Source of the DNA: Styela clava
Taxonomy: Eukaryota; Chordata; Ascidiacea; Stolidobranchia; Styelidae
Assembly (NCBI RefSeq): GCF_964204865.1
Contig: NC_135259.1
Coordinates: 5,218,974-5,282,973 of the forward strand
Direction of reading: 5' to 3'
DNA length: 64,000 nt
In this document: piece after piece, positions 2,601 through 49,531 of the stretch
How the letters are laid out: the number at the start of each line of letters is the position of its first letter
How positions within the stretch are numbered: the stretch's first letter is position 1
Translations under genes and position numbers: made by a program
The notes under the pieces: model-generated
What the model was told of the DNA's origin: nothing
The model's database searches: none
What the model saw: the letters and a program-made list of their open reading frames with translations, nothing else

Positions 2601-2637
2601 GACATAGAAAAATGAAAATCGAATGCGATATCTATTA

Positions 2638-7262: not shown

Positions 7263-7606
7263 TCAAAGGACGGATCCAGCCGGAGTAGCTTGGTCTTCTG
7301 CTACCGTTATCTTGTCGTGCATTTCAATTTTAGTAAAATGTGTTGATTTGGAAGAACATCTTGACGTTCTCTGTGAAGAACATTGACTATCTTTTGTTCT
7401 CCGAATCTTTTTGTAAACCGCGTCAACCATGTCCGAATATAGAATAGGATTAAGAGCGCTGTTTATGGGCAAAAGAACGATTGCTGCCACAGCGTATGCT
7501 GTATCTTGAATATTCACTCCAGCCAGCTTGCAGAAGGACATTATGCAAATTGGGACCCAACAACAGAAATCAGTGATGATGAGACGAAGTATTTTTTTTT
7601 GCATTG
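7263..7606 (-). pseudogene. Orphan copy of receptor last exon (TM6-TM7, tail), unit A
   Basis: A 344-nt exon on the minus strand with a good acceptor (TTATTTTTCAG before CAATGC), open to a TGA at 7263-7265. It encodes TM6 with DFCCWVPICIMSFCK, TM7 with LLPINSALNPILYS and a Ser/Thr-rich tail, the same as exon 18 of the LDLa-LGR receptor at 26,989. No exons for TM1-TM5 lie between it and unit B, so alone it cannot make a receptor. The frame is fully open (differences from exon 18 include R for Q in IQRTK, C for G in SRG, T for S in QASP). It could be a relic, or a distant alternative last exon of the receptor transcript. Confidence 0.8.
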
Positions 7607-8050: not shown

Positions 8051-8090
8051 CTAGCCTTGAGCTCATTAGAACGTATGGAAGATATATATA

Positions 8091-11741: not shown

Positions 11742-12047
11742 GACATGGAAAAATGAAAATCGAATGCGATATCTATTAGCTCAGGTTGGCTTATGCATGA
11801 TAACTAAATATTATTGTTATGGCCTGACATTATAAATCCCGCCTAAACAGTATTACAAAAAAAGATGTCTCTATGTCAGAAAATTTAGTAATTACCCTCC
11901 TCACATTTGGTAATAAATCAACCTGCAGTGATTTGTAAACTGTAAACATGAGTTTGAAAAAAAGCTGACCAATTCAAACAGATTTTTAACTGGATATAGG
12001 AGAGTAGAGGGTTGATGGTAATTGAACTGAGAATTAGCATTCACATA

Positions 12048-12373
12048 CTTTTGATGTCTTCTTCAACCTTCTTCGTCGATATCAGCAAAACGACTTTCTC
12101 CATCAAAACTTCATCTTCCTCCATTGAGCATGCTGTCGCTCCAACTATTTTGATTTTGTCAGCTTTCCTCGTTTTAATGAGTGCTGGAAATCCGCGCCCT
12201 TATTTAAATATTGCTGGATATAGATATTCATAACACACAGCAAGAAATTTTTGTCTAATATTTGGATCAGGATGTGTTTAAATGTATAAAGGGTCATTAT
12301 GAAAAGCTCGTTAGCATGTTTGAAAACTCGCCAACCAGTCCCGTTCATTACCATCAAATAACTCAATTCACAT
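12048..12373 (-). pseudogene. GNAT exon 1 relic, antisense, unit B
   Basis: The same relic as at 3313-3638: an acceptor-like TTTTTTCAG and ATG, then stops at codon 2 and later, with the KIKIVGATACSMEEDE and RFADIDEEG blocks still readable in shifted frames. Only one copy is present here, without the 406-bp duplication of unit A. Long open frames seen on either strand across this stretch (12012-12233 plus, 12145-12492 minus) are by-products of reading it out of frame. Confidence 0.8.
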
Positions 12374-13500: not shown

Positions 13501-14430
13501 ATGTGGATTGAATTATCAGAACGCAAGGAAAGTGATTGGAGAAAATGTTTTAAAATATGTCAGAGAGCATTTCAAAATGATCCTTTCTACACTTACACAC
13601 ACCCGGATCCAGAAATTCGGCGAGAATTTTTGAAAGTCTATTTTGACTATTTATATCCAGCTATTTTTCAAGATGGCAAAGGTATATTAGTTGTAATAAA
13701 AGCTGAAGACGAGGAAGGAATCAAAATAATTGGTGGAATGTCAGTTACAATGTATCAGGATGAGGAATTAGAAAATGATCACACAGCTTTACTAGCAGTT
13801 GATAGAAACGGTTGGATGAAACATTCAAGGTAATACTTACTACTTATTTGATAAAACTTTACATTTAATGTGTTCAATGTTTTCAGTGCTCCAGTGCTCA
13901 ATTTCGGCCAAAGGTGTTTGATATAGTACTTGTTCATCCCTCACATCACTGTCTGGAATACCATAGAACAATTGTATTATTACCTATGATCCATTTGTTA
14001 TATTTATAGACGTGATGACTGGGAATATAAAACCTATTACTATAAATTACAAGAATTGGCAGACAAATTAGGTACAAACCTTATGCCTGGCGTGTTTCAA
14101 ATAGTGGATGATGGCTACAGAGGAAAAGGAATTGGATCAAAATTCGTCATGCAAGCGGTGCAGATGATGAGTGACGAAGTCGTAAAAAGAAAGCGTCTCG
14201 CTGGAATAGCAAACCCAAAACCTCCCCTGGCTCATTGCATCTGTGATCATGAAAGGTCTAGGAATTTCACGAAGAAAAGTGGATTCATAGAAGTGGCTCA
14301 ATTACGTACAAATAACGTTGGAGTTCTAGGCAAAGATACATCCCATATATGGATATTTTTACTTCCACCTGAGGATCCGAGTTGGATTTATGAAGCCAGA
14401 AAAATGTTTGCTCATTCATCGAATCTGTAA
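13501..14430 (+). CDS. GNAT-family N-acetyltransferase, type 2, copy B
   Basis: Exons 13501-13829 and 14010-14430, 180-bp phase-2 intron, 249 codons plus TAA. I read no difference from copy A (4753-5682) in either exon or in the intron, whereas the surrounding spacer differs by substitutions and small indels. Motif A DDGYRGKGIGSKFV and the C-terminal HERSRNFTKKSGF block are present. Acceptor-like TTTAATTCAG|A precedes the ATG. Predicted cytosolic N-acetyltransferase, acceptor unknown. Confidence 0.85.
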
Positions 14431-16016
14431 ACATTTCTTTTTGTGCTCCATACTTATCTTATCAGGCACATATAAGCATTGCGGAACTTATGTGAACTAA
14501 CTCGAATTAAATAGTTTCTCAGCTGCCAATGTTTGATGGAATAATAGTCTGGAGGAAATTACTAACAGTCATGAGTTATACCCTTTATAAAAACCATGAT
14601 TTTTTTGCAGAATAGATTACTGCCTTTTATCAAATTCTTGTGCTAATACTAAAAAACATTATCAGATTATTTTTTATGTCTTATGTCTTGATTGTCTTTG
14701 CAATATATATGATTTTGTGCAATATATTATATTCCATTTTCTTCGGATTTTTTGTATATAAATGAAATGACATATATTATATAAATATATATAACTATTT
14801 CTCGGAATAATGATTTTCTTTTATAGATACCAGTTACATTCCACTAAAAATATTATGTTAGGAGTATTTTGGAATACTACTTCTCTTTATGATATTAGTC
14901 CTGTAACTGATTGCGTTTAGCAAACCGCATTAGTAAAGTATCGCGTTAATCGGTAGTTTTTACAAACCGCTTTTCTAGTAGAAAGTTATCTATGAATCAT
15001 GATGTTTTAGTATTTTCTTGACGCGTTGCGATAAAACAGATTACTCTGGTGTCAGTCGTATCGAGAGCAAGATTGTTTGTAAAATACATATGATAAAATC
15101 AATTGTATTTTATAGAAACATTCTTGATAAAAGATATATAACAGTTTACTTCTGTGAGAAAACTCATTTAAAAAAATATCTATGACCTTAGTTTTATTAT
15201 ACACAAGTGCAAAACCAACGGATAACAATAAAATTTGATGCATGAAGAACATCTTTCGAATGGCAACTGATTGATACAAACAAAAAACTATATAAAAATG
15301 AAGACAAGAACAGAAGCATTTTATGTATTACATAACATATCCGGGGACTACTCATTACCAATTGAATTGAATAAATTTCACGCAAAATAAACGACGTACT
15401 GATTTTCTTTAACACAAACACAAAGAAGCCCAAGTTATTTTGCCATTAGTTAGGCTTAGTCAAACATAAATGCATGATTGCACTTTTGTTTTTCGTTGCT
15501 TGCCCACCTACCAGATTTGTATGTTGAAATTTACAAAGTATATGAATATATATCTGAGAAACAACTGATGAGCAAACATGCATACGATGGACACGAAAGG
15601 AAACTTCTCAACAATGTGCTTTAGCTTGCATAAAACGAGATTTCAAGAACGTTTCAATAAAGAAGGCTACGGAATAGCACAAAATTGTTCTTATACTCGA
15701 ATGACTTTATTATTCACCTACAAATATCTACTCTGATCAAGTTTGATGGAACGTTTAGTACTGTTTGTTCTTGACTACCCAAATCTGTGCGAGAAGTTTT
15801 CAGAAGAGTCAACCCTCAAAAATGGGCTCAAAGATGGCAATCCAAGCTGGTCTTATTGAAAGGAGTCCACAACTAGGTTCCATGACACTGAGTAGGTTTT
15901 AAATCGCTGGTTAGTATTTTCTGGTTTCTGGAATAATTTCTTGTGAACCAATCACATTCAGAGGTCAACTAATATTTAACAATGATGCACGTAAAAATGC
16001 TTCAATTTCCAGTTAC

Positions 16017-16360
16017 TCAAAGGACGGATCCAGCCGGAGTAGCTTGGTCTTCTGCTACCGTTATCTTGTCGTGCATTTCAATTTTAGTAAAATGTGTTGA
16101 TTTGGAAGAACCTCTTTACGTTCTCTGTGAAGAACATTGACTATCTTTTGTTCTCCGAATCTTTTTGTAAACCGCGTCAACCATGTCCGAATATAGAATA
16201 GGATTAAGAGCACTGTTTATGGGCAAAAGAACGATTGCTGCCACAGCGTATGCTGTATCTTGAATATTCACTCCCGCCAGCTTGCAGAAGGACATTATGC
16301 AAATTGGGACCCAACAACAGAAATCAGTGATGATGAGACGAAGTATTTTTCTTTGCATTG
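16017..16360 (-). pseudogene. Orphan copy of receptor last exon, unit B (nonsense in tail)
   Basis: The same 344-nt exon as at 7263-7606 and 26,989-27,332, with an intact TTTTTCAG acceptor and intact TM6 and TM7 (CCWVPICIMSFCK, LLPINSALNPILYS). A TAA follows CSSQRT in the cytoplasmic tail, where the C copy reads TCA, so the last third of the tail is lost. No TM1-TM5 exons are near. It is most simply a decaying duplicate of exon 18, but the phase and acceptor would still allow use as a truncating alternative last exon. Confidence 0.8.
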
Positions 16361-16479
16361 CTGAAAAATAAAACAAATTTATATAAAAAATTGATAATAA
16401 TAATAATTCCGATAAGGAAAATCAACCCAGAAACAAATGAAATTAAGGTGTGGGTGGTTATTGCCAAGGCTGTAGATTC

Positions 16480-16800
16480 GGAGAAAGTTTACATCCAACT
16501 CTGGACTATGGGTTGTTACATTTTTCCTATTCCTACTCCAGCTCTGAACTTAGGGAAAATTAAATCGAAAAGCGAAAACTTTGGCGTATGCAGGCCTTCT
16601 CTAATAGACTGTTGGGAACGCATCATAAATTTCATGCTTTTTGCTGATTGCTCTTGTTACCAATGCCAGTCTGAAATTCTTAATTCGGTGAATTCAGAAT
16701 AATGAGTTAGAAAACAACGATCCCAGTTCCGACTCCGAATCCAATGGAAAAATGCCAAAATTTCAGCCCCGTCTCGACTCCACAGCTCAGCTTGCTAGAA
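16480..16800 (+). repeat. Dispersed repeat R2, unit B copy
   Basis: Unit B copy of the TCCGACTCC-rich repeat described at 7720-8050; the open frame 16358-16702 runs through it and is not a gene. Confidence 0.6.
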
Positions 16801-18363
16801 ACACCCAGCCTTGAGCTCATTAGAACGTATGGAAGATATATATATAGAAGTCACAGCTGCGCTGTGTTAAGTTAGAAAAGTAGGTGTTTGAGGCTCTTTT
16901 ATGTCTCAGATAGCCGTAGTATTTCGTAGTAGTGCTTTTATTTTACCGCAAGTCGGCGCAAAGGCGAGTTACGATGAACACAATTAAATTAATATGGCAA
17001 GACATTTTAAATGCGCGTATTGTCCATGGATTGAGTATCTTAGGCAACAGAAAATATTATTATCCGTTGGAAAAGTAGGCTGCTTAATTAAGTCGGCATT
17101 ATTGCGGCGCGATAGAGTGATACAGATTCGAAAAAGCGAATAATTTGCCTTTGGCCGGATTTTTACTTGGTAATATTTGAATGTTGGGTTTGTTAATGGA
17201 CGCAGTGAACAGTTTAGTGATTAAAAAATTACACTATCGTTTTTTGTTTTTTATAACAGTTCTCAAACCCGGTATTTAATGCCTATGTCATATATTTAAT
17301 GTCAAAGAAATGTCATCGTCAAGAATGCAGAGATTTTAGAACTCATTTTCAATTGATTGAAATTAGGCCCAATCCAAATGAAATCAATGGATTCATTTCA
17401 GATTTAATAATATAAATTTAAAATATTGAACAAGTCTACAATACAGAATCTTTAGATCCAAATGGCCCCAAAGTGTTTTTATGTTGCCAATGCAGAAAAT
17501 TGGTTTAAGGGATTTTTTGAAAAAATATCTGAAATATTTTGGTTGAACATTGATTCCAAAAATATTGGATCTCCAATTTCTATGTCCCCCCGTTTTTTAA
17601 ATGATACTGCTGAATCTTTCCTTAGTTTTAAGGACATACTTCGATGAATTTAACAGAATTCCCCATTGTGCGTCAGGGTCTGTCCGAATGTGCCCCACTC
17701 GTGGGATACAGTGGGAGACAAACGTTATTATTTTCAAAGCATTTTGGCGGTGAGATGTATGTCGCGAGGGAATTTCTTAGTCGCTGAATAAAAACCACAT
17801 TTACTCCTCTCCGCATTTGCACCGCAAAATGAAATGAAAGTACAGAATATATGACTCAAAATATGCAGATGAAAAAAAAGTGTCTCAACCTTCCACACTT
17901 TCCCCTACTCAGTTTCTAGCTACCGGAATATTCCATTATTTTCCTAATGAGGAAGATGTCTTATTTAAATGCACATAAAAAGATGTAAGATAAAATTTTG
18001 ATGACCCTGTGGATTCTCACAACCTGTGATTGTGACCACACTAACGGTCAATTGCTCTGGTATATACAGACTAGTATGCAATCTATACAAAATGAGTCTT
18101 TAAACCACGCTTTCGTCTTCAATTAACGCCTTGTATGGCACACAAAATTGTAACTCGAGAGTCCGAATTTAGGTATGGCTATTTAAAGCTCTGAGGACTT
18201 TGTACTACAAAACTCGTTAGAAACAATTTATAAATCTCATCGAAAATATGAAATTATTTACATCTATTTTAAATAAATGGGATTAGTATTAACTTAATAG
18301 TAAACTAGCACATGAAGATCAAATTCAGTTCATGTTTTAGTTTAGTAATTTATCTACCTCAGA

Positions 18364-24092: not shown

Positions 24093-24471
24093 TTTCATTA
24101 GTGAGAAATTGTGATTTCAATTGCATTATGAGTTATATGCAACGGCAATCGTCCAGAAATCGTTAACATATCGTAAATTCATTTCAATGGAGAACGTGGG
24201 TCCGCGGAAAATACACGATGTAGAAAATAGTCACAAGCTCTTCCCGTCATGTTTACTTTACTCGTATTTTTTGTATTCGTGCAATTCCAAATAAAAATTA
24301 AATCGCAATGCCCAATTACGCTTGAATCAGCGAGTTATTTTAGAGATTTTGGTCTTCGTTTATAATGCTTAGGCGTCTATTGCACGTATCAAATTATTAT
24401 TCTTTTTGGTTGTGCCTCCGTATTCCTATTATTCGTGTTCGAACAATCAAAAATATTTTATTTAATTCAGA

Positions 24472-25404
24472 ATGTGGATGGAATTATCAGATGGCAAGGA
24501 AAGTGATTGGAGAGATTGTTTTAAAATATGTCAGCGAGCATTTCAAAATGATCCTTTCTACACTTACACACACCCGGATCCAGCAATTCGGCGAGAATTT
24601 TTGAAAGTCTATTTTGACTATTTATACCCAGCTATTTTACAAGATGGCAAAGGTATATTAGTTGTAATAAAAGCTGAAGACGAGGAAGGAATCAAAATAA
24701 TTGGTGGAATGTCAGTTACAATGTATCAGGATGAGGAATTAGAAAATGATCACACAGCTTTACTAGCAGTTGATAGAAACGGTTGGATGAAACATTTGAG
24801 GTAATACTTACTACCTATTTGATAAAACTTTACATTTAATGTGTTCAATGTTTTCAGTGCTTCATTTTTTTTCAATTTCGGCCAAAGGTTTTTGATATAG
24901 TACTTGTTCATCCCTCACATCACTGTCTGGAATACCATAGAACAATTGTATTATTACCTATGATGCATTTGTTATATTTATAGACGTGATGACTGGGAAT
25001 GTGAAACCTATTACGAAAAATTACAAGAATTGGCAGACAAATTAGGTACAAACCTTATGCCTGGCGTGTTTCAAATAGTGGATGATGGCTACAGAGGAAA
25101 AGGAATTGGATCAAAATTCGTCATGCAAGCGGTGCAGATGATGAGTGACGAAGTCGTAAAAAGAAAGCGTCTCGCTGGAATAGCAAAACCTAAACCTCCC
25201 CTGGCTTATTGCATCTGTGATCATGAAAGGTCTAGGAATTTTACGAAGAAAAGTGGGTTCATAGAAGTGGCTCAATTACGTACAAACAACGTTGGAGTTC
25301 TAGGCAAAGATACATCCCATATATGGATATTTTTACTTCCACCTGAGGATCCGAGTTGGATTTATGAAGCCAGAAAAATGTTTGTTTATCCATCTAATCT
25401 GTAA
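24472..25404 (+). CDS. GNAT-family N-acetyltransferase, type 2, copy C
   Basis: Exons 24472-24800 and 24984-25404 with a 183-bp phase-2 intron give 249 codons plus TAA. It is intact and about ten residues different from copies A/B, for example MWME for MWIE, DGKE for ERKE, CETYYEK for YKTYYYK and VYPSNL for AHSSNL at the end. Motif A DDGYRGKGIGSKFV is present. TTTAATTCAG|A precedes the ATG as in the other copies. It lies convergent with the receptor gene, whose last exon ends about 1.6 kb to the right. Predicted N-acetyltransferase with unknown acceptor. Confidence 0.85.
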
Positions 25405-26988
25405 ACATTTCTTTTTGTGCTCCATACTTATCAGGCACATATAACATTGCGGAACTTATATGAACTACCTCGAATCAAATAGTTTTTCAGCTGCCAAAGT
25501 TTGATGGAATAATAGTCTAGAGGAAATTACAAACAGTCATGAGTTATACCCTTTACCCGTGATTTTTTTGCAGAATAGATTACTGCCTTTTATCAAATCC
25601 TTGTGCTTATACTAAAATACATTATCAGATTATTTTGTATGTCTTATGTCAGATTGTCTTTGCAATATATATGATTTTGTGCAATATAATATTATATTCC
25701 ATTTTCTTCGGATTTTTTTGTATATACTGTAAATGAAAAGACATACATTATATAAATATATATAACTATTTCTCGAAATAATGATTTTCTTTTATAGATA
25801 CCAGTTACATTCCACCAAAAATATTATGTTAAAAGTATTTTGGAATACTACTTCTCTTTAAGATATTAGTCCTGTAACTGATTGCGTTGAGCAAACCGCA
25901 TTAGTAAAGTATCGCGTTAATCGGTAGTTTCAACGAACCGCTTTTCAAGTAGAAAGTTATCTATAAATCATGATGTTTTAGTGTTTTCATGTCGCGCTGC
26001 GATAAAAAAGATTACTCTGGTGTCAGTCGTATCGAGAGCAAGATTGTTTATAAAATACATACGATAAATTCAATCGTATTTGATAGAAACATTCTTGATA
26101 AAAGATATATAACAGTTTACTTCTGTGGGAAAACTCATTTAAAAAAAATATCTATGACTTTGGATTTATTATACACCTGTGCAAAACCAATGGATAACAA
26201 TAAAATTTGATGCATGAAGAATATCTTTCGAATGGCAACTGATTGATACAAACAAAAAACTATATAAAAATGAAGACAAGAACAGAAGCATTTTATGTAT
26301 TACATAACATATCCGGGGACTACTCATTGCCAATTGAATTGAATAAATTTCACGCAAAATAAACGACGTACTGATTTTCATTAACACAAACACAAAGAAG
26401 CCCAAGTTATTTTGCCATTAGTTAGGCTTAGTCAAACATAAATGCATGATTGCACTTTTGTTTTTCGTTGCTTGCCCACCTACCAGATTTGTATGTTGAA
26501 ATTTACAAAGTATATAAATATATATATATCTGAAAAACAACTGATGAGCTGGGCATGGACGCAAAATGAAACTCCTCTTCATTGTGCTTGAGCTTGCATA
26601 AAACGAGATTTCAAGAACGATTCCATAAATAAGGCTACGAAAGAGCACAAAGTTGCTTTAACTCAAATGATCCTATTATTTACCTACAAAATTTCAAGTT
26701 TTCTTCTGATCAAGTTTGATGGAACGCTTAGTACTCTTTGTTCTTGACAACCCAAATCAGAAGAGCCCACCCTCAAAAATGGGCTCAAAGATGGCAATCC
26801 AAGCTGGTCTTATTGAAAGGAGTCAACTTTCAAGAAAATTATCACTAAGTTCCATGACACTGAGTAGGTTTTGAATCGCTGGTTAGTATTTTCAGGTTTC
26901 TGGAATAATTTCTTGTGAACCAATCACATTCAAAGGTCAACTAATATTTAACAATGATGCACGTAAAAATGCTTCAATTTCCAGTTAC

Positions 26989-29900
26989 TCAAAGAACGGA
27001 TCCAGCCGGAGAAGCTTGGTCTTCTGCTACCGTTATCTTGTCGTGCATTTCAATTTTAGTAAAATGTGTTGATTTGGAAGAACCTCTTGACGTTCTCTGT
27101 GAAGAACATTGACTATCTTTTGTTCTCTGAATCTTTTTGTAAACCGCGTCAACCATGTCCGAATATAGAATAGGATTAAGAGCACTGTTTATGGGCAAAA
27201 GAACGATTGCTGCCACAGCGTATGCTGTATCTTGAATATTCACTCCAGCCAGCTTGCAGAAGGACATTATGCAAATTGGGACCCAACAACAGAAATCAGT
27301 GATGATGAGACGAAGTATTTTTCTTTGCATTGCTGAAAAATAAAACAAATTAATATAAAAAATTGATAATGATAATAATTCCAATAAGGAAAATCAACCC
27401 AGAAACAAATGAAATTAAGTTGTGGGTGGTTATTGCGAAGGCTGTAGATTCGGGGAAAGTTTACATCCAACTCCGGACTATGGGTTGTTACATTTTTCCT
27501 ACTCCGACTCCAGCTCTGAACTTTGGGAAATTTAAATCAAAAAGCGAAAACTTTGGCGTATGCAGGCCTTCTCTAATAGACTGTTGTGAACGCATCATAA
27601 ATTTCATTCTTTTTGCTGATTGTTTTTGTTACCAATGCCAGTCTGAAATTCCTACTTCGGTGAATTCAGAATAATGAGTTAGAAAACAACGATCCCAGTT
27701 CCGACTCCGAATCCAATGAAAACATGCCAAACTTCCAGCCCCGTCTCGATTCTACAGCCCAGCTTGCTAGAGGCACCTAGCCTTGAGCTCAATAGAACGT
27801 AGGGAAGATATATTGCTTACACTAATTTTGTTAAATAGATAAATATTTACGGCAAGTATCAAAACAACAACGAAAACAAACAAAATATCTGTCACAAACA
27901 AACATAAGGAAATTATAATTCTATGCTAAATACAGGAGTGACAAATTTTTGTAAACGTTCTAGTAATATAACGAACATCGTAAGATATTAATTTAGGTAT
28001 ATATATCTGAAATCAAATCTACTTCGTGTGACACAATAAAATTGAAATATATGGATGTGTGTGGAGGTTTAAAGAATCGTCAAAATAGATTGCTTTTTTA
28101 TCAAAAATAAAATTATTCAAAATAATAGTGGAAATCAAAACGGATGCGTTCAAGTTTAAAAAATTACAAATTACATTGCTTTTTTATCTAAAATAAAATC
28201 ATCTAAAATAATAGCGAAACTCAAAACTAAAATAAAGCGAAAATAAATGCCACGCCTCCAACCTAAACCCCTTTTATGATGAACCTCATCATGCGTTTTA
28301 GTTTGGCTACGTCGAGAACTTATTCTTTTCCCTGTATAAAAGTTAGTTATTTGATATATAAATTCTGCCGTAATTTATTTTTGAAATTTTAAACATTTTA
28401 CACTTATAAAGAAAGATTCAAATTTTTATTATCGTACAATTATAACTTTATATTACAATAGGTTTAAAACAAACATATATATGAGATGGTTTGAAAACAA
28501 GTATGATTTTGTTACTTCATTCTTCTGAATAGAAACATATAGATATGGATTGATAATTCACTCAGATACTCATTGCTATAATTCACAATATATATGCAAT
28601 TTTATTAAAAACGATACGTACATTTCATATTTTTCTCATCATTTTTCTGCGGACCTCGTACGTTGACGTCTTTTCTTGACTTGAAATATATACTAATATA
28701 GGCAACCACAACAAAAGTGAAAGCCACAAAATTAAACAGGGTAAGAATGAATGAAAACACCCACGCAGGATCTGATCTTGTTATGAAAAATTTCGGGATA
28801 CAAACACTTGCTGTACTGTAATACCTGCAAATAAATTGAATTGTAAATTCCTTGAAATGTCACTTGAGTTCATTGCTGGGGTTAAATGAGAATTGTGTCA
28901 CGGCTCGTACATCCGGTACAGGATATATGACTCAGTGATATTGTCTGGCATTCGATCTTGCTTGAGTAAAAATCAAATCACAGAATCTTACTCGAACGCT
29001 TAGAACTAGTTAAATACAATACAAAGGTATAAAAAGTTTTCTGAGATTTGGTAAAATCGACTACCAAGAAATCAAATGCAATCCGAAACTGTTCGCAACT
29101 AAAACTGTTTATGCTATCATTTTTTTTTTCGGATTGCTTCACATGACTATTTTTCTGCCAAAAAGCAGTTAGGGTATTGCAGATTGTAGGCTTTCAGAAA
29201 TATTTACATTATGCTTCAATATAAAAACGTTTGTATTTCTGATTTAAAAAATGATCCTATTCAGTAAATCACTAATCAGTAACTTTGGATAGAAGAAACG
29301 TTGAATCTGTAATATAGTCAACTCACCCCCAATAAATCTCGGGATCAAAATAATTAAAATCAAAGTATTTTGTAGCATCATTCTTTAAATCGTCCCATGA
29401 TGCTTGTTCTAGGAATGTATTCAACTCTAAAAACACAATTAAGTGAATAATTTGTATTAGGCCTAATGTAAATGTTAAATAGTACGCCTGTCTTTAAGGT
29501 TATGTCCGCCATAACAACCGCATGTGAAAATGTAGGTATGCACTTGTCTGCATTTTGCCATAAACGACAGGTATAACAAACAATGAGATGTTGCAATAAC
29601 CTTAATTAATTGTGGGTTATAAAAATGGTTAAATATATGCAAAGTTTACTGTAATAGTTTACCTGCGACGTTAGCTTGAGAAATATTTTCTGATTTTGTC
29701 AATACCATTTGGCTAAACATCTGTTTGGTTGTTGCTAAAGGAGTTGAAATTGCAGTAGCAAATGGATTGTTTTTGAACTTTACGCCGCTTACAAATATTC
29801 TAGATAATCCTGGCGTTAGAGGTAATAATCCGAGAATCAGTGACGTCATCCATGAGCCCAGGATAAATATGAGCAAATGGCGTGGTGAGGGTTTCCTTGA

Positions 29901-32900
29901 TGACTGGAAAGGCTGAAATGTTTATAATATTTTATTTAATATTAAACAGATATATGAAGATGTGCTTTAGAACAGCGCTTACGAGACATCGTAAAATTCT
30001 AAGACCTCAAAGCTCACAAATCGAAACTTACACAAAGAGGTAATAAAATTAGAACATTTATAATAAAAACTCTGCATTATTACCTATATAAAATAGAGCA
30101 AAATCGTAAAAACAGCATAAAATGTTTTCACTTTCTTACATTAGAGATTGCATAAAGTCTACATCCGGTCAATAAAATCATTGTTATCACGGATGTTTCA
30201 CTCGCAGCGACAGATAATACGCCAAGTCCAATGCACGTCTTACTAGAACGCCACGCCAGGTCTCGACTGCAGTAATCACCCTGAATTAAGTTATACTGTA
30301 AATATTTACCTTAAACACTACAAGTTCATTCTTAATTGTGATAGATTGTGTGAGATCAAAGTTGGAAATAGTCATTGAGGTGATTCAAATTAGATTATTT
30401 ATTTTTCAAGTATTTGCAAAAATTTTATGCACCAGTTCTCGCTACGAACTCCCATCTGCTCGCACTATCTATTGTTAAAAAAAAGTGAAAAGTAACTTGA
30501 CTAAATTCATGATATTAACTTGTTACCAATGTCAATATATGATGTGGATACAACCCAGGTGAAGATAACTACATTATCCCCATTCAAAACCTATGGAACA
30601 ACCACAAACTGCGTTTTTTATTTGAATGATAATTTTGTTTAAAAATATAACAGTAGAATTAAACATTGTGTTTAAAATGCATCGGAAATTCCAAATCCAA
30701 ATCGTCTTTCAAAAGTCAAACACAAAAACGCTAAACTATAAAAATCAACCCTATGACTTTTGTAATTCTTACAATTTTCATTTTATTGTCTTAATAAAAA
30801 ATATTATACCTGCATTTTTAAGGTCATGACACAAAGAGAAATCAAATATATTCCCATCAAAAAATCAGCTAACGCCAGATTTAATATTAATAATCTGTTG
30901 GCTCTCATTGCTGGTGTTATTTTCGTCTTTTGACGAAGTTTAATAATTTCTCGTATTATGACGGCCTATAAATAAATAAAATTATTGAAACACACATATT
31001 AATACATTTTCACTCACAATTTGTTGTAAATTTACTCCATGGCATCTTTGGTAATAAAACTATCGAGAATCATGGTATGTAGTTTATTTATTTGTCGAAA
31101 TTGCACAGCAAAAATGTTAACAAAATAATTTAAATGTAGGAGACCTCATTTGTTTTGTTTTTGTCCATCTGAAATTTGTTATACTCAAAGATTCATACTA
31201 AAGAAAGAATCAACTTACGGCATTGCCTATTATTGCCAAAAGCGCCATAATCCATATTATTGTACGCAGTACAGAGCTCTCAATCAACTCATATCTTGAT
31301 GAAAATGCATCAATAGAAGTTGACTTATTAATGGTTGGACATTCATCACTCCAGTCTGAGCAGTCACCGATTCCGTCGCGTTTCTGAAATTTGGCCAAAA
31401 CTGAGAATAATCCGACAATTCATTTGAAATTTAGCTCTATATATCTCGTCATTTGTAATGGGCTAGTACATTTAATCGCGTATTTACTAAAACTATAGTG
31501 TAATCTAAAAAACATTAACAATCAAAAAGATGCGACTGGTTATGATTTTATTTTATAGTGCAAATTATTATATGGTTTCAATGTATTTAGTGGGCTTTTA
31601 CTATGCCTGATGTGACAAGCTTATCAATAATTTATTTTCTATAAAAAATATCAATTCATATTGCCAACTATTAACCAATGGAGTATTTTAAAATTTAGGA
31701 TAACACGTTATATTAGCCACAATTGCCTTCAAATTTTCCATAATTGATAAATGAAAGTTTATTTGGTACTTTCATATTTCCTTTTGTTTCATTGAATATG
31801 TACAATAAATGGAATCACTGCGTCGAATTTGCATTCCATTTTTTTCGATCTCTTGATCAACGGCCATATATGATACTTGACGGTAGATAGCCTGTCAGTA
31901 ATGAACTTCCCATGGTGTCCATATATTAGGTGATAGTTGTCGTACTTCTAGTACGTTTTTTACGTTTTTTCAGCTCCAAATTTCTTAGTATATAAAGTAT
32001 TGTATGTTTAATATATATGATATACCACTCAATAATTAATTATTCAATTAAATTTCTGACATCGTTTATTTTCAATAATAAATATGAGTTTCAATCTTCT
32101 TCTGCACAAAACTGAATTGGCGTTCATATACAAATACAAAGATCCTTAGCAAAACACATATTCTCTACAATACATATATATAATGAAAAAAATAGTTTTC
32201 AGAGAGATACCAAATGTAATACATCTAAGCTGACTGCCAATTTTACGTATGCATTATTTATGTGTCCTAACTCAACTATTTTGGAAACTTACAATTTTAA
32301 TTACAAATCATTTGTTCATTTCTCTATAAAGCAAGCTCAAATATTACATGACAATATCTTAGAACAGCGTTTCCCAACCTATGTTCCGCGATATTGCATC
32401 TTTCAAAAGCACACTACTGTTTCGCGAGCGTCTTCCGAGTGTTCCGTAGAAAACAAATCAAAAATACGTCTAAATGGGTCCCATGGCGATCTAGGGATTG
32501 TGAAGTTGTCGTCCAACTGACCGTTCAATATCGCGTCACCATCGACCTAAAGCGGACTAACTGAGGTAGGTAGGGTAGTGGCATTTTCCTTAACCGCCTA
32601 GCTTTTTGACTGTTAGGCTCATTATCAAGTTTGGAGACATCCTTTTGTTTTTTCGATTGGCAAACAAGTAGGTCTAAAGAACAAAGGCAAATGGTCAATT
32701 CTTCTTCCGCCATCTCTGCCTGGGTTTCCTTCAAATGCTGAGGCGATTACTTATGTTCGCTAAACTCGATTCAGCAGATAAATATATATACTGCAGCTCG
32801 CGACGTTGCAGCAAGTACGTCTATCCCTATTGAATGTAAACTAGTGGCAAACACTACGTAATGGAAAGTAAACGACATAGAAAGCTAAAATGAATTTGTT

Positions 32901-35900
32901 GATTCATATACACAGCATTTAAAATAAGAAACAATAAAACATTTATGGTAAATGCAATATGTAAAATATTCAATCATATTTTTGTTACGTTTAGCACAAT
33001 TTGTTAGTTTTCGTGGCGCATTTGGCAACACCCTTCGGGAACCGCTGCCATTTTTCTTTATGAATTTTACACTTTCATTTTTTGATGTTCCGCGAGGCAA
33101 GATAAAAAGTATAAGTGTTCCGGGGCCAAAAAAATTTGGGAAACGCTGTCTTAGAAGAATTAGCTTAAATTGCGACATCATAACAATACTGGTAAGCCAT
33201 GTTCAAAATGCTTCTCATATATTTTATATATTTGCAATACATCATACCTGGGAATTCATCACGTAAAGCGGTTGTCCATTTTCACAATAAAATCTGTCAT
33301 CAGTGCAGTTCATTTCATCTGTTTCATTGTCACAATTTTTTGAGAAATCACATAAATTCCTGCTGTCAATACTGATCTGAATTTATAATTCAAATTTTTC
33401 ATAATACGATATAATTTATTGTGGTTAAATCTTTCATATCCTGTATTAGTTTTCTAATATAATTGGTGTAGAAATTACCATTAATCCCCCTCGTACAGAG
33501 CAACGGAATCTGTTTGATCTTCCAGAATCTTTGCAAACGTCTGCAATTTCGTCTTTTCCATCTGTGCAATCTAATATACCATCACAAACTTTATCTTCGG
33601 ATATGCTTACATATCCAGGTCTTGTTGAATTACAGTAAAATCTGAAATTGTATTCAGGTTTTATTAAATTAAAAGATGAATGCCTCACGTTGCATGGCAA
33701 CGGATTTAAGTATGAATTTGAAAAGGAGTTATAGATCTATTTGTATTCCTTTATAATTTTAAGGGAAATCGAAGATGCTACTCACAAGATACCTTGAGTT
33801 GGAAATATTTTCAGTAACTTCGAAAATCACATATTAGTGTCCGATAAATTGGTCAATACCTTCAATTCGATACCCACAGGAGTGTTATTGTGCGAATTGT
33901 GTTATAGCTTATAAAAACCAAGTAAGTAATAACTTATATACTAAAATACTAATTCGTTTGGCAAAATTTTCAGTATTTCTGACTTAAACTTCTGATTTAG
34001 TACCGATAGTACAAAATATAAATCTGAATATCGTGTTATGTTAGCAAAAAATAGTAATAAAATTTGACTTTCATCTTCATGAATGAAAAACTTATGATAA
34101 TTTTGTGACCAACATTCACAATTTAGTATGGCTATGTTTACTCTCACCTGTAAAATTCATCGATGCAATGGCTTTCGTCATCTCCCATCAATTCACAATC
34201 TATAACACCATCGCAATATTTCTCGCCATCAATTTCTTTTGTGTAGTCATCCGGTAACACAGAACCCTGATAGCACAATTGTAAATTGTTAAAAGCAAAA
34301 GGAAAGTGATATTGCTTGTAGTTTGGCAAGATGATTCTGTTTTTGAAAGATGCTTTATATTTAACGCTTTCATTGTCATATAATGCTACATGATATGATT
34401 ACGTATATTATTTTCACGAGAAAACGAGCTATTTGAAGCAAGCATGTGCATGATAAACTGTTACATTTTTAACCGTCGTGAATTGCAAATGTTTCATCTG
34501 AATTTCAAAATAATTGTTGAACCCACAAGGACTGATTATGAATCGTTAAGAAGCGTTTACGGAATGATTATTAAGCACCCCCACAAAAAAAAAAACTGAC
34601 ACAAAGATTCAATTTAAAAATTAATGTTGCTTCTAAATATTAATTACACTATTCATTTTGTATAACAGAAACAAAATTCTTGTATTGCAACCTAATTCCA
34701 CTTTATATGTAATATGATTTATTCATGAACTGATTGCTTATCATTTAGCCTCCTAAAAATATGAGTGGTTACTATAGGCTATTATAAAATTCAATGAGAT
34801 AAGGTCCATAAGATTTGTCTTACATCGTCCGGCTTTTCGCACCACGTTCCATACAACGACTGCTTCAATGTTTTTGATGCACTTTCAACGCAAGTAAAAT
34901 TTGAAGGCTTTTCACTGCACGATGCAATACATTCATCTTCAGGATATTCCCACAATGTATTGATAACATACCCTGGGTCTTGTCTTGGTGGACATTCAGC
35001 CAAACCGTTACACGATACACCGTAATACCGACGACAAGATACGTCGTGATCGACGACGCATCTGATGTAAGATAATGTATATTTAACGATTTATCAAACG
35101 TAGGAACAGTGTAAAAATTGTTTATTTTGAAATTATTTTCAAAAAATTTAAACAATGTAAATTCCTTTCATCGTTGAGATTGAAGTGTTGAATTTATATA
35201 TACCTCATAACGAATACCTCGATTCGAATTCAAACGTATATTATAAATAGTAATTTTAAAATTGTTTCTTGCTGTAATTAAATGTAATTAAAGTATTTTG
35301 AATACCTGCATTTTTCTTGATTTTCTGCGTCTTTGCAAGCTAGTGTTCCATCACATAAACCTTCACTGAAAAATATTTAAAAAAAAGTTATAGTACACGC
35401 GAATTCATTAAATTAGAAACTAAAAAAAAATGATGCTCAATATTATTCCTCGAGTTTCAAAATAGAATTGTTTATCAAACCTCTCGTCCTCATCGCAATC
35501 CTTTACACCGTCACAAATTCTATGTCGTGAAATACATTTATCATTTTTGCACCTGACATCACCTATCTGACAATGAGTTGCATTGGTGGTTGTATCAACC
35601 GGCAGAAGCAAATTTTCCAACGACAATCCAAAGCTCTGTGAAAATGTTATCAGTGAACTTATAAGTTAGATTGGTCAGTTGGATTGTAGGATTGAATTGC
35701 AACATATTTGATGGATCGTTTTCGAAATCGTGCTCGATTTAAAACAATTATAAATATATATTTTATTAATATTGTATACTTTATATTTTACTAAAAAATG
35801 GTTTTACAACACGCGATTATTTGTTAGGACCAAACGTTTGAAAAACTTGCAGGGAATATTCAATTTTTTCTGTTTTGTTAACTAGTTTTAATTTTAAAAA

Positions 35901-38900
35901 CACGTGTAAATCTGAAACGGATTGTAAATTATGTGATCAGAGTTCAAACTCTACAAAATTCAAATTAACCTTATTCCGATGAACCGTGATTGTCTATATA
36001 ATACAAAAAATATAATTTATAAATATTACTTATGCATTAACAGAATTTGCACTTATGTCAGATTGTCGTAATGCTCCAGTCAGGTTTCATACCTTATAAT
36101 TGTTTTGAGTTATAATTTGATCACAGATGGCTGGTTTGTTCTTTTCGCAAAAACATTCATCTGATAAATCTGGACAGTCAATTATGTGATCACATATTGC
36201 AGACGAACGAACAATCATCGATTTATCCATACATTGAAAACATTTATCTCGAATGAGATATTCAGTTGGCTGTCTCTCGTTTCTGAAAAATAAATTATTT
36301 ATTATTGAATGTTTCTATCAATTATTTGTTTTCTTTTTTAATTTCTCTATATAGATTTTATCATACTATTATTTATGATTTCCATCATTTTCGCTCCCTA
36401 AAGTTCTGTGTCAAATCAAGGTCAAGCCATTTTTGCATAAATTGATGAGCAGCGCCATACATATACATTTACATACATTATCTGTCCTTCTGTTATGGCA
36501 ACTGACCAGAAAGGTTCCACTTTTTAATATTCTTGCTTTTTTCAGATACTTTTAGCGACAAAATAGCTTTTGAACTATAATGGAAAGTAATATAGGGTTT
36601 TCAATCTGGGTCTCGCAAAACTATAAACTATAAATAATATATCAAACTACATATGCCTAGTCATAACACACAGCGTATTTTGGTTCAAGATAATGATTGT
36701 TTTCAAATTAGATACTTTTTATACATTAAATAAAAAAATAAATGAGATTGGAATATCACGCTATACGTAGTTGATCAACAAAACAAAATCAACGTTGTCG
36801 AAATGGTATTACTATAGAATTTCATTTCATTAAATACTTTCGACTTGGGAAAAATTGATTGCAAGTTTTTGAAAATTGGCTTTGCTAAACCGTACCGCAT
36901 TTGTTCTTATGATAGCCAATAGCATTAAATATGTAGGAATTCTATTATACTGAATAAAAAAATTCCACCTCGACATGGCCGTCACGTTTTTAAAACATAT
37001 ATCCACACCACCATCACAATCTTCTACATCGTCATGAAGTAATTGCTGAGGCAACATACAAGTTGCCCCGTTTCTAACGCATTTGAATCCGATCCCATTA
37101 CTCCACTCGTGATCTTCAGGGCAGGCTGTACAAGGATTACTATCGCAAACTGACGTCCGAAGATAACAAGAACCATCCTATTAATGAATATCAGTTTCAT
37201 GACTAATTAGAGTTGAAATGTAAGAGGTACAAAGATAACTTAAGAGATTGACATATATAGTTCAACTATTTCTTTAGATCTAGATATTCAAAATTATTTT
37301 TCTATATAAATTATTTAACATACACTGAAAACTATAAAAATCGTCTACTTTTACAGTTCACAAATAGAGTTGGAGCATGATTTTCGGATTGTATATTCAC
37401 GCTTGGGTTGTTAAAATGATCATTTCACAAATTTTGTTTATAAATGAAAACGGTGATACACAGCTCTAGTCTAACATTTTCAACGCTAAAGTAATGCAAA
37501 ACGTTTCTAGCTATTAAATTTCTTACCGTGCATTTATAATGAGATTTACATTTCAGATCACAAGGAGATAAGTTTGAACAAGATACAATTCCATCACATA
37601 TTTGATCACGCGATACAACGCAAAAACCATCGTGTGAGTTTTCAGAATTTGTGCAACTGAAAGAAAGAAAAATATTGAAAAATAGACATTGTTGCTCCAA
37701 TCGTCGTAATCACTCTTATCGCTATATATCGCTATCGCGAAAATTTTGATTAAAGTGGTTTGTTTGGCAAACCTACATAATGTAGTATGTAAATAAACGC
37801 AGTCGATTTTATTGTTTAAATCGTTTAATTGTTTAAAATTTGTTATAGCAATAAAAACAACAACAATCTCTTTTTTATAAATTTATCAATTCCGTTTATT
37901 ACCATTTGTGCAAAAAAATAAATAAAAAAAAATTGCTGTACATATATTTTATGTGTTGACATTTTGCTTTTCATTTAATAAATAACTTATACATGAGTGG
38001 AATAAATGTTGAATAATACAAAAACACTGGATGGCCCGATTACTCACGAATACTTTTATTTTGGAACTTAAAAGCGTGTAACAGCTACAGGACTTTAACA
38101 AAAATATCAAATTATTAACAAAAATTTCCTTCTTGTCAGGACTAGATTTCAGAAGATTTTCTAAAATTCATCAAAATTTAAAATTGACTGACGGATAAGA
38201 ATAAGAAAAGTTATACTTTGGAATAATGTTACAATCTTCAGATTCCTATCGCTGTGGAACTTGATAAAAACACAAATTAAAACTTATAAATTATTATAAA
38301 ATAAAATATTGGATTAATCGAACGCGTTTGTTACAAAAAATGTGTATCCTAATGTCGAGATTTTAATTTGGATACCACTAGGCGCAGGTAGTTATAGTGA
38401 GATACAGCTCAATCCAGGAAACATTCCACAAAAATGGGTACTTACGAAATTCCATATTAAAAAAAAAAAAAAAAAAAATATATTCTAAATAAATTGAGCT
38501 AGACAAAAAAAGAGGAACTAGATTTCCAAACAAACTTGTGCAATTTCCCCAATGGATGAAATTCTCCCAGGGCTAATCCTGGTTCGTCTTCACCTCCTTT
38601 GCAGTCTGCATCACCATCACAAAAGCACTCGTATTTAATTCTTTTTGTATCGTTGCAATAGAAGAATTTTGTTTCTGTTATACAAAATGAATAGTGTAAT
38701 TATTATTTGAATACAACATCAATTTTTAAACTGATTATTTGTGTCGTTTTCTGGACGATTGATGAACATATTCCGATTGATTTCTAATTAGTCGTGGACG
38801 ATTCAACATTTCTTTTAAAATTGGAGTAATTTATAAAAGAACCATGGTGTCAATTTAAAGAAATATAATTTGGCCACGTGAAACATTAAACTAATAAGTT

Positions 38901-39757
38901 AGAAAATGCAAATTGTCTGATTCTACTTAATAATCTTGAAATGAGCGATGAAGCTTAATGATCCACTGTACTGAACACTTGCTCTTTTTTAAACAACAGT
39001 ATTGAGTATTAAATTAACAACAGCGCATCAGCATACGAAATGAAAATTTTCAAGTGTTTAATTGCTGCATTATTGCAACTAAACAACGTAATAACAGATT
39101 AAAAATACCTAATATTATGAAATTAAACCTAGTGCACAAATTCCAGAAAATTTATTCATGAATCTAATTCCATAATTGATGGCATAACTGATGCATAAAT
39201 GTTACATCTCTATAGCAAAATCGCTATATAGCATTTTGAAACACTGTTTATGGACTCTCAATTAATTGCAAAAAATTTGGAATTACATCGTGTCTGGTAA
39301 AAGGTTAGAAATATCATCATTCAATTTATTATCAACTAATTTTGTTCATGTGACAACTTCATACTCAACAAATTATCAAAATGTCGTTGGATTGGGATAA
39401 ATATTTATATTATTTAATTTATTGAATTATTTTAACCTAAATATGTAATTTATAATGTAATCTATGCCTTATATTTCCTCCCTTCTTTGCCGTGATAGAA
39501 AGGAAACCCTGCCCTTTCATGTATTAGTAGCTGATGGTTGTACGTAAATTTTTTAATGACTACTTTAATGACCTATTATTATATTATTGCATAATGTATA
39601 TTACGTGCTCCAATATTACTTTAAAAATCTTCGAATAATGCTGAACACATTTCTTACCATATTTCTCTCCTCGTGCATAGACATAAAACCCACTTTTAAA
39701 AGATATGGTACCTAATATTATTAACAGTTTTATAAGCTGTAACATATTCAGTTTCAT
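26989..39757 (-). CDS. LDLa-repeat seven-helix receptor, LGR/relaxin-receptor-like, no LRRs
   Basis: Eighteen minus-strand exons fit in phase: 39658-39757, 38536-38674, 37527-37656, 36969-37177, 36093-36282, 35481-35635, 35306-35365, 34824-35061, 34148-34266, 33479-33641, 33248-33376, 31219-31383, 30810-30965, 30140-30280, 29663-29912, 29327-29426, 28622-28824, 26989-27332; 2991 nt, 996 aa. Residues 1-28 are a signal peptide (MKLNMLQLIKLLIILG). About 70-560 hold roughly ten LDLa-like cysteine modules (for example ICDGVKDCDEDE, CDGILDCTDGKDE, GDCSDWSDEC); several are degenerate. The last LDLa runs straight into TM1, so there are no leucine-rich repeats. TM2 has NLALADFLMGIYL, TM7 has LPINSALNPILYS; YC after TM2 and VC before TM5 can form the usual disulfide. 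ECL2 is about 100 residues. Family knowledge places it near RXFP/GRL101 receptors; the ligand is unknown. The weakest splice is the exon 2 donor (AA|GTTTGT). AG lies 14 nt before the ATG. Confidence 0.85.
27460..27770 (+). repeat. Dispersed repeat R2, unit C copy (in receptor intron 17)
   Basis: Copy of the TCCGACTCC-rich block described at 7720-8050, lying in the last intron of the receptor gene, antisense to it. A frame at 27363-27674 runs through it and is not a gene. Confidence 0.6.
28085..28240. repeat. Diverged tandem repeat of about 90 bp
   Basis: Two neighbouring copies share ATTGCTTTTTTATC, AAAATAAAAT and AAAATAATAG at a spacing near 90 bp. They lie in receptor intron 17 just outside the duplicated unit. 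Confidence 0.6.
32365..33148. mobile_element. hAT-type non-autonomous DNA transposon in receptor intron 11
   Basis: The element is 784 bp. Its ends are a perfect 13-bp inverted repeat: CAGCGTTTCCCAA at 32365 and TTGGGAAACGCTG ending at 33148. It is flanked by an exact 8-bp target duplication, TCTTAGAA, at 32357-32364 and 33149-33156. An 8-bp duplication with CAGxG-type ends is the signature of the hAT superfamily. No transposase frame is present, so it was mobilised in trans. It sits between the two exons that share the last LDLa module. Confidence 0.92.
38458..38479. repeat. Poly(A) run in receptor intron 1-2 region
   Basis: An uninterrupted run of about 20 A on the plus strand lies just 3' (minus sense) of receptor exon 2. 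It could be the tail of a retroposed piece, but no body or target duplication was recognised. Confidence 0.6.
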
Positions 39758-46766: not shown

Positions 46767-49531
46767 TCAGCGTCTTTCCGCAAAAACCTTATATGGGTTA
46801 GGGCGCAAGGTAAACATATTATATCCTTTTATATCAACTTCATCTGGCCGATCAAGAATAAAGTGATAACGTTGAAATAGCGTTGCGGTGATGAGAAATA
46901 ATTCCATTATCGCTAGCTGTTGTCCAAGGCATTGTCGAGCTCCGATCGAGAATGGAATTACGTTAGGGGATTTAATGAATTTTCCGTCTGCGGTAATATG
47001 GCGCCCTGGATCAAACTTTTCTGAATCTCCCCAAACCGATTTGTCATGGTGGATCCTAAAGATGTTGGAAACTACGATTGAACCTTTTGGAATATTGTAG
47101 CCCAGAATAGTATCTTCTTTAGCAGCAACATGAGGAATCCCAACCGGAGCAACAGGTCGAATTCGTAATGTTTCCTTTAAAAATAAAGCAAGACAAAACA
47201 TAAAAAAATCTTGGGAAATTATGTCAATTATGAAGACTAACAATGTGATACAATGTATTAATGTTATCAAATGCTGTCCCGTGCATTAAAAGCAAAAGTC
47301 ATGTTCGGTTCCGGTGCTGCAAATTTTTGAGATAAACATGTACACATATACAAAAAATCTGGTGTTGATTTATATTTACCGTTTAATGTTTCTGTAAAAT
47401 AAAACTATCAGCTAGCAAAGCAGTTGGGTGGACAGATGCATTTTCGATACCAGTCATCTTTATCACCCACTAGACGCACAGCGTACGCAGATGCGTATAA
47501 CATCAACTTTTTACAAGTTAAAATACTATTGTTTTGTGATAAATTGTAAAGAAATTGAAGAAAATAAGACAAGTAATTTTTTTTTAATAATTATCAGCAG
47601 CAAATCTTTTCACCTGGATCACGGCCCTGGTGTATGGCATCTTCTCTGATTTTGCTACACTTGCACGGCAGTCTTCTCCTAAAACGAGATCAATCTCTCG
47701 ATGCATGTGAGATTGAATCTCGGGATTAAGTGTGACGTATAACATCAACCAACAAAATGTAGTAGATGACGTTTCAGATCCAGCAAGAAAAAGATCACGA
47801 ACTAGTTTTATCAACTGATCGTGCACAAAACTTGTTTCCGTCTCAACAAATCTGTGGTCTGAGCCTGATATACAAAATACTGCGTAAGTGAAAATGTGCA
47901 CGCGGTGGACACACTTCTGCAATCAGATTTGTAAACCAAGAAGCATATTTTTGAACTGAAAGCAATCTGCATTTTCCAATTGCGTGCGGTCATTCACTAA
48001 TTATGATAATATTTCTATGGCATTTATGCGTGAGGCCACTTAGTGTTTGGGATGAAATAAAAATACAATTCAGTTTAAATAAATCCATTATTATGTCAAT
48101 ATGCCACAATAAATACACGGTAATTGTTATTCGCACTGCCAACATCAGATTTGTAAGTTTTGCTATTTGTGATACTGATTCATTCATACAGATCGAACAG
48201 GGATTAATTGATAACGAAATAAAAATGATGTTTACCTGCCGAATACGAGTGCCGTCTTGCACGATTCGTTGTTTCCATCTCGTTCAGAAAACAATCTATG
48301 ACATCACGAGGTTCAAACTTATCTCTCGATTTTCTGTGTTCTTCAATTTGCACTTTGATTTCCCGACACATGCTGTTGTTATAGTCATCTGATATTTTGT
48401 ATCCAAAAGAAAACGGGGGAATATACTGAGAACAAAGAACAAATGAATATCAATTTCAGCATTGAATTAGCGATGTTGAAGAACCATTATTACAAGAAAA
48501 CACGCAAAAACGACATAAAGTGTTTTATTTTTTCCATAATAAGCTTATACGTTTTGAACAAAAATCCCAACAAATTATAGATTTTCTTGTATTCGTGTAT
48601 GACGATATAGTTTTATGCTAATGATTGTTTTGAAATTGAATTACTAACTTTCAAGACAGGGACGAGGAAGATCAATCCGGTAAACTTATCGTAGGGGGTT
48701 CCTTCAATCAGAATTTTCAGCAGCCTTTTAAATTCTTCATTTTCTTCAGACAAGTTTTTGTTGAATACAAGCTTAGAAATAACACTTGATACTGATTCAT
48801 AAACAGCGGGTTCAATGCTAAACGCTTCTTCTCTCACACAATACTCTTCTACGCGTTCACAAATGTGCTCGCATTTTTCCAAGATTGCTGGTTCTATACT
48901 ACGCCTCCCCATGCCAAAGTCACGTAAAGCTGCTAGTCCAAAACGACGCTGCTCTTTAAGTTTATTTGTATTGTTGATAAAAAGAATTCCGTTGTCTCCG
49001 AGTAAGGGAGGCACGGAATTCATCAACCTATCTGAAAATATTTCACTCTTTTTTACAAACGCTTCGTGAACTGCTTCAATGCTACCGAGAAGTATAAAAT
49101 TTCTGCTTCCCAGTTTTACTTGACAAACCGGACCATATTTTTCGTTCCAATTGTACATTACTCTTTCAGAATGAAAGTTGAGTGACGGAAGACTCCCAAT
49201 AAACGGCCATCCTTTAGGGCCTAAAACAGAACAATAATTACAATTTTACAATGCCCCACTAACACATATGATTGCTTCACGACAAAACATCAGAAATTGT
49301 ACATCTGAGCATTTGTAAATTTAAAGTAATATTGAGCACGAATGCACCCTCGCATGCGTAATGTATAAGAAATATATAAATAAAATTACCAGGAGGCGGG
49401 TTAGTCATCATCTTTTCTCGATGTTTTATTAAAGAAATATAAAATGCAACTATGATCACAAGGATGGCGAATGACTGTGGGCTAACGTATTGTTTCAACA
49501 TGAAAAAACTCCAAAACTCGACTTCGTCCAT
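46767..49531 (-). CDS. Cytochrome P450, CYP2-like
   Basis: Five minus-strand exons fit in phase: 49390-49531, 48649-49220, 48236-48425, 47614-47864, 46767-47174; 1563 nt, 520 aa. The N-terminus has a membrane anchor (FAILVIIVAFYISLI) and the hinge PPPGPKGWPFIG, so it is an ER-bound microsomal enzyme. The I-helix reads FLAGSETSS (oxygen activation), the K-helix has ETLR (ExxR, E386/R389), a PERF-like FDPGRH follows, and the haem loop is PFSIGARQCLG with ligand Cys467. Length and DCFLNEM before the I-helix match the CYP2 clan. It would hydroxylate a hydrophobic substrate using NADPH-P450 reductase; the substrate and subfamily cannot be set by eye. Splice sites are ordinary, including a GTTAGT donor after exon 2. 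It appears intact. Confidence 0.92.

Follow-up and report, generated by a model that had tools for sequence, protein, structure and literature searches.

A Styela clava receptor gene with an LDLa-based ectodomain, no detected leucine-rich repeats and an enlarged second extracellular loop

We analyzed a 64,000-nucleotide stretch of the genome of the tunicate Styela clava (NCBI RefSeq assembly GCF_964204865.1, contig NC_135259.1), hereafter the window, which lies at C13:5218974-5282973 and carries a gene for a seven-helix receptor. Our rebuilt model places this gene on the minus strand at window positions 39757..26989 and comprises 18 exons encoding 1002 amino acids with a single terminal stop (Table 1). 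Splice sites were chosen by eye from three-frame translations; all 17 introns are bounded by GT and AG, and phases are compatible at every exon junction. A preliminary description of the same DNA had proposed an 18-exon gene at this place and on this strand, with which our model agrees, and its 996-amino-acid model was near in size to the protein we obtained. The locus is a real, conserved gene, and one intact-looking gene. Exons 1 and 2 found no match in four relatives with exon-split coding regions (two on C2 and one each on C4 and C13); the case for exon 1 is therefore made by a start codon, a hydrophobic stretch and splice sites, and the start is putative.

A Pfam search of the whole model, up to E = 1, recovered Ldl_recept_a (5.4e-11, four stretches) and 7tm_1 (1.8e-19), together with an ECSCR match at chance level (0.13). 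It had been suggested that LDLa modules run continuously through exons 2-12, and our piecewise searches sustain this in part. LDLa scored above the Pfam cut-off of 24.1 bits in pieces from exons 2-3, 6-7 and 10-12; exon 5 fell below the cut-off, and exon 4 and the exon 8-9 piece gave no LDLa match, though these stretches are cysteine-rich and matched in relatives (exon 4 found no match in the C13 relative stretch). The first 575 residues contain 56 cysteines and are acidic, with 103 D/E against 61 K/R. As judged from these profiles, the ectodomain is LDLa-based, with degenerate and unrecognized cysteine-rich parts.

We searched the S. clava assembly (376.6 Mb, 379 contigs) with the helix part of the receptor and obtained 104 exon-level matches, the window's own included. 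From these we retrieved several exon-split loci and 12 others, L001-L012, in which a single frame, or nearly so, covers the helix part. L001 (724 amino acids) and L002 (808 amino acids) are single frames that hold three and five LDLa stretches, respectively, followed by 7tm_1, and no leucine-rich repeat (LRR). Pfam likewise found 7tm_1 and no LRR family in L003 and L009, whose LDLa matches exceed the cut-off, in L008, L010 and L011, where LDLa falls just below it (22.3-22.5 bits), and in L005, which gave no LDLa at E 0.01, just a PRKCSH-like match (0.0095); L004, L006, L007 and the four exon-split relatives lay outside this search. Just the last one or two modules are visible in the frames of L003-L007. 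When 4.5-7 kb of upstream sequence was added for four loci, we counted eight LDLa motifs in flank plus frame on C1 (L001), six on C14 (L002), four on C19 (L003) and one on C9 (L008). The LRR parts of L012, whose locus served as a positive control and was detected, found no match in these four scanned flanks (those of L004-L007 and L009-L011 were outside the scan), and stray matches to an LRR expression, one to four per stretch, lacked the 72-base-step series seen in the control. The four exon-split relatives show LDLa-exon matches followed by helix-exon matches in the order of the window gene; these matches are incomplete, with exon 4 found in two loci and exons 9-10 missing in the second C2 gene. 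Receptor relatives also form arrays at C19:10.98-11.06 Mb, with five matches whose seven-helix part lies in one frame of 490-513 amino acids (two of the five are among the loci retrieved), and at C2:17.486-17.566 Mb.

L012, on C9, is organized differently. It combines LRR_8 and 7tm_1 in one 672-amino-acid frame. Just upstream lies another LRR frame, 334 amino acids long, and further upstream on the same strand are four LDLa frames, three of which exceed the cut-off. If transcribed as one unit, this locus (L012/L031, C9:16.1185-16.1256 Mb, minus strand) would have the GRL101-like architecture of LDLa, LRRs and seven helices.

We examined the window gene itself for LRRs. According to the preliminary description, exons 11 and 12 share the last LDLa module, and exon 12 also encodes the first transmembrane helix (TM1); our model, with exon 11 at 33376-33248 and exon 12 at 31383-31219, bears this out. 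The domain search it proposed, run on the 1002-amino-acid model, returned no LRR family up to E = 1. A strict LRR regular expression matched neither the model nor intron 11, and across the whole gene it matched twice on the coding strand and never on the other; a loose expression gave three matches within the model, none of them outside the helix part, and one in intron 11, with nine matches against seven on the two strands. LRR exons between 31,384 and 33,247, which would have undone the earlier proposal, did not appear: neither the regular expressions nor Pfam, applied to 2 of the 29 frames that reach 25 amino acids or more in intron 11, revealed a convincing hidden LRR exon. In the four exon-split relatives, moreover, the interval between exons 11 and 12 is about 243, 517, 332 and 248 bases, as estimated from match ends. 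Because single-frame relatives hold LDLa and seven helices together, and because exon-split relatives leave only about 0.24-0.52 kb for LRR exons, missing LRR exons are very unlikely.

The second extracellular loop (exoloop 2) of these receptors is enlarged. Counted from the proline of TM4 as far as the loop cysteine, it spans 82-95 residues in all 12 rows measured (the window gene and L001-L011), against 18 in L012, 17 in RXFP1, 13 in TSHR (3 residues unseen) and 13 in LGR4, so that the loop is about 65-80 residues longer than in these four LRR-bearing receptors. In the alignment with RXFP1, query residues 168-245 are left unpaired; they lie after TM4 and ahead of the loop cysteine. In the window gene, the coding sequence of the enlargement starts in the end of exon 15, takes in the whole next exon and reaches into exon 17; exon 16 was only weakly found in the four exon-split relatives (E 7e-4, 0.003, 0.81 and 0.18), which were left out of the count. 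Most loop columns are variable. Because a tryptophan is present in 10 of the 12 rows and the rows share an ending before the loop cysteine, the enlargement looks like homologous sequence across them.

On the membrane side, the ectodomain closes with a remnant of an LDLa module, which in the window gene ends at residue 565, some 25 residues short of TM1 (residue 591). There, 15 of 16 rows, all but L007, show the pattern DG..DC....(S)DE and then C or W; the pattern itself requires the DC and DE letters, so counts of those are not independent. The closing residue is cysteine in 11 rows and tryptophan in 4, and the first residue of the D/N-G pair is D in 12 of 15 rows and N in 3. Directly before that pair, at the fourth-cysteine position of LDLa, the residue is not cysteine in any of the 13 rows read (the matches of C2a and C4p are trimmed there). 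By comparison with LDLa structures, the calcium-binding acids would be largely kept in this remnant, and the C1-C3 and C4-C6 disulphides would not.

By sequence, the solved structures closest to the helix part are RXFP1 (4.2e-29), TSHR (2.1e-28) and LHCGR (4.5e-27); over TM5-TM7, RXFP1 scores 60.1 bits against 34.8 for TSHR. We built a tree from a subset of the loci among the 104 matches, placing the root ourselves on TSHR and LGR4; RXFP1 and LGR4 form long branches, and the tree holds no GRL101 of other animals. A branch with support 99/99 parts the 16 rows labelled LDLa-only from the four LRR-bearing rows (L012 and human RXFP1, TSHR and LGR4), and it persists at 97/99 with exoloop 2 cut out, a cut that in the four exon-split rows began at the proline before TM4 and removed TM4 too. 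TSHR and LGR4 are parted from all other rows at 100/98, or 100/97 with the loop cut, and the mutual order of L012, RXFP1 and the LDLa-only group is unresolved. In this tree, of the sort suggested as a check in the preliminary description, the helix part groups with RXFP1 and with the LDLa- and LRR-bearing receptor of the same genome, apart from TSHR and LGR4, the GRL101-like architecture being represented by L012 alone. A single loss of LRRs within type-C LGRs would be the simplest reading.

Kamesh et al. 2008 (PMC2396169) had already described 14 LRR-less receptors in Ciona under the name LDLRR-GPCRs, which have a relaxin-receptor-like helix part, 1-10 N-terminal LDL-A repeats, no LRR and a lineage-specific expansion in a tunicate. 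The LRR-less lineage of LGR-type receptors put forward in the preliminary description is borne out by the single-frame relatives, by the exon order of the split ones and by the tree, and is not new. The window receptor likewise combines a helix part like that of the INSL3/relaxin receptors with at least one N-terminal LDL-A, no LRR and a tunicate host, and on this sequence evidence it is a further relative of that published, little-studied kind. The S. clava genome, at 376.6 Mb, is larger than that of Ciona, which is far smaller than this figure. What our analysis adds to Kamesh et al. is the GRL101-like locus with LDLa, LRRs and a short exoloop 2 in the same genome, the conservation of the membrane-side LDLa remnant in the rows compared, and the enlarged exoloop 2, the last being the part worth following. 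By word search, the terms ECL2, insertion and intronless are absent from the main text of PMC2396169, where 'extracellular loop' occurs just in the references; its sections on these receptors discuss neither the remnant nor the enlarged loop. Within the open-licence literature searched, we came across no description of an enlarged exoloop 2 for LDLa-only receptors.

Other known receptors fit less well. The window receptor lacks the ectodomain LRRs that characterize LGRs. It shares multiple LDLa modules and a related helix part with GRL101-type receptors (type C2 LGRs), which differ in having LRRs according to passages of PMC8286064, a source that also places GRL101 in ambulacrarians. RXFP1 and RXFP2 (type C1 LGRs) share an LDLa module and, for RXFP1, the best solved match of the helix part by a small margin, but they carry one far-N-terminal LDLa followed by about ten LRRs (ten in passages of PMC4561518) and have a short exoloop 2, and RXFP1 has EKY at positions 3.49-3.51; the single-LDLa-plus-LRR arrangement is absent here. 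RXFP/LGR3-type receptors were lost in urochordates, as stated in part of PMC11863921. Among the LDLa-bearing receptors of other animals treated in the consulted parts of PMC6267866, PMC4079206 and PMC2246102, no LRR-less relaxin-receptor-like member is described.

The window also carries duplicated sequence. A tandem segmental duplication of about 93.5% identity occupies positions 1-27813 (24102-27813 corresponds to 13131-16841, and 24239-27813 to 4520-8087) and carries two orphan duplicates of exon 18, copies B and C. These differ from each other at 5 of 344 exon positions and at 32 of 2455 positions in non-coding flanks. We considered whether they could be alternative last exons; because the exon differs as much as the flanks between copies, and because the reading frame of B is broken by a stop, both seem to be dead leftovers of a segmental duplication. 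Between the real exon 18 and copies B and C, 5 and 6 of 344 positions differ, whereas the non-coding flanks differ at about 5.8% and 5.6% (p 0.0002 and 0.001 by Fisher's test). This low divergence would be accounted for in part if the real exon is under constraint; alternatively, the common ancestor of B and C may have been constrained, or gene conversion may have acted. Closer duplicates also occur, namely an adjacent direct repeat of 405 bases at 2638-3448 (99.75%) and a 3-kb copy pairing 1-3042 with 9149-12183 (98.5%), which reflect either very recent duplication or an assembly join.

Acetyltransferase-like tandem genes or fragments lie on the plus strand at about 395, 4735, 9543, 13483, 18346, 19472 and 24454, with weak Pfam support (Acetyltransf_7, E 0.0077, below cut-off), and exons of a cytochrome P450 gene lie on the minus strand at 46767-49245 (Pfam 2e-24 and 2.5e-40). 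Elsewhere in the assembly, a GH6 frame on C9 lies about 2 kb downstream of a frame matching Glyco_trans_2_3 and Cellulose_synt. Among animals, this cellulose synthase and GH6 pair is not known outside the tunicates, and it points to a tunicate host.

Table 1. Exons, domains and duplicates of the receptor gene, in window coordinates
Feature	Position	Strand	Remarks
Exon 1	39658..39757	-	Start codon and signal-peptide-like hydrophobic stretch
Exons 2-3	37527..38674 (38674-38536, 37656-37527)	-	LDLa; Pfam 25.7 bits, in exon-2 part; exon 3 matched in C2 and C4 relatives
Exon 4	36951..37177	-	Cysteine-rich; no Pfam family; 61-63% identity in C2 and C4 relatives
Exon 5	36093..36282	-	Weak LDLa; 15.3 bits, below cut-off; 45-59% identity in relatives
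Exons 6-7	35306..35635	-	LDLa module with six Cys, then half-module; 24.2 bits
Exons 8-9	34148..35061	-	Cysteine-rich stretch and CDG..DC module without part of the usual cysteines; no Pfam family; exon 8 33-40% identity in relatives
Exons 10-11	33248..33641	-	LDLa modules, without C1-C3 cysteine pair by reading; 43.7 bits, three stretches over exons 10-12
Membrane-side LDLa remnant, first half (FYC..G.PL.V), exon 11	33248..33292	-	
Intron 11	31384..33247	-	1.86 kb; tested for hidden LRR exons, none found
Membrane-side LDLa remnant, second half (DG..DC..WSDEC), exon 12	31336..31383	-	
Hinge and TM1, exon 12	31219..31335	-	
Exons 13-15	29663..30965	-	TM2, TM3 (CRL in place of (D/E)RY), TM4
Exoloop-2 enlargement, exon 15 part	29663..29810	-	TM4 proline and loop cysteine 94 residues apart (RXFP1, 17)
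Exoloop-2 enlargement, exon 16	29327..29426	-	
Exon 17	28622..28824	-	Loop cysteine (VCIP) and TM5
Exon 18	26989..27332	-	TM6, TM7 (NPILY), C-tail
Exon 18 orphan duplicate, copy B	16017..16360	-	In-frame stop in tail
Exon 18 orphan duplicate, copy C	7263..7606	-	Open

How such a receptor might signal is suggested by RXFP1, in which the LDLa module is needed for signalling and not for binding, and in which LDLa and linker have been proposed to contact or act on exoloop 2, as set out in passages of PMC4561518 and PMC4837482. Because the LRR arm that positions LDLa is gone here and the loop is larger, we infer a related mechanism, and we consider it reasonably probable that a large tunicate receptor family derived from type-C LGRs lost the LRR domain, kept a partly degenerate LDLa array and enlarged exoloop 2. 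The array would catch an extracellular ligand; ligand capture would move the membrane-side module on the enlarged loop; and that module, sitting close to TM1, would serve as a built-in activator or gate acting through exoloop 2. This scheme draws on analogy as well as on sequence, from which the gene model, the lack of detectable LRRs, the relatedness, the loop length and the membrane-side module were computed. In the preliminary description, binding of the ligand, or the part of a tethered agonist, falls to the LDLa modules alone; the enlargement of exoloop 2 suggests that this loop may share in the mechanism, in which case the LDLa modules would perhaps not act by themselves. A bolder version, which we hold only tentatively, is that the LRR arm was replaced, exoloop 2 having grown into a conserved mini-domain of 82-95 residues on which the membrane-side remnant docks directly, giving a self-contained tethered-agonist switch without an LRR horseshoe.

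Several points weigh against this mechanism. The analogy to RXFP1 spans a large distance, and RXFP1 is only slightly ahead of TSHR, which scores higher over TM1-TM4 (73.9 against 51.4 bits). Not all 16 rows labelled LDLa-only have Pfam-proven LDLa, and the degeneracy of several modules is such that an LDLa fold may be beyond them. The comparison behind the apparent link of loop growth to LRR loss includes one LRR receptor from the same genome and three human ones, with Ciona receptors and the GRL101 of other animals outside the comparison.

We think it unlikely, though worth weighing, that the LDLa modules form a classical LDL-receptor-like cargo trap that senses lipoprotein or another large protein complex, with no special part for exoloop 2. 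Such a role is proposed in passages of PMC2396169, which also report that a majority of Ciona expressed sequence tag hits came from blood tissue and haemocytes, and the acidity of the ectodomain suits it. A cargo trap would, however, not account for an exoloop 2 that is long in every one of the 12 rows measured and short in the LDLa- and LRR-bearing receptor of the same genome, and several modules lack canonical cysteines.

Less probable still, and by some way, is a receptor that is constitutively active or a decoy, for which ligand binding is dispensable. The acidic residue 3.49 of the (D/E)RY motif is absent in all 16 rows labelled LDLa-only, whereas Arg3.50 and NPxxY are kept in every one, and in class A receptors basal activity is often raised when the residue at 3.49 is neutral. 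But L012, which has LRRs, also lacks the acidic residue (TRL, with Arg3.50 kept in it as well, and so in all 17 rows), so this change is not special to LRR loss, and the ectodomain exons are conserved across relatives. Finally, although intron 11 is long and splice sites were picked by eye, an artefact of the gene model, in which LRR exons were missed or the LDLa and helix exons belong to two genes, is hardly credible given the lack of LRRs in the model and in the two intron-11 frames searched by Pfam, the short exon 11-12 interval in four relatives, the relatives that encode both parts in single frames, and the one module split over exons 11 and 12 in the same phase.

These receptors bear on a wider question. 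A sizeable expansion of such receptors is documented in tunicates, for which no ligand is reported in the literature covered. In the relaxin receptors LDLa is a built-in activator, but the LRR arm hampers the separation of binding from activation. A natural family free of LRRs, with a larger form of the loop that LDLa is proposed to contact, offers a ready-made minimal system in which to test the RXFP1 model.

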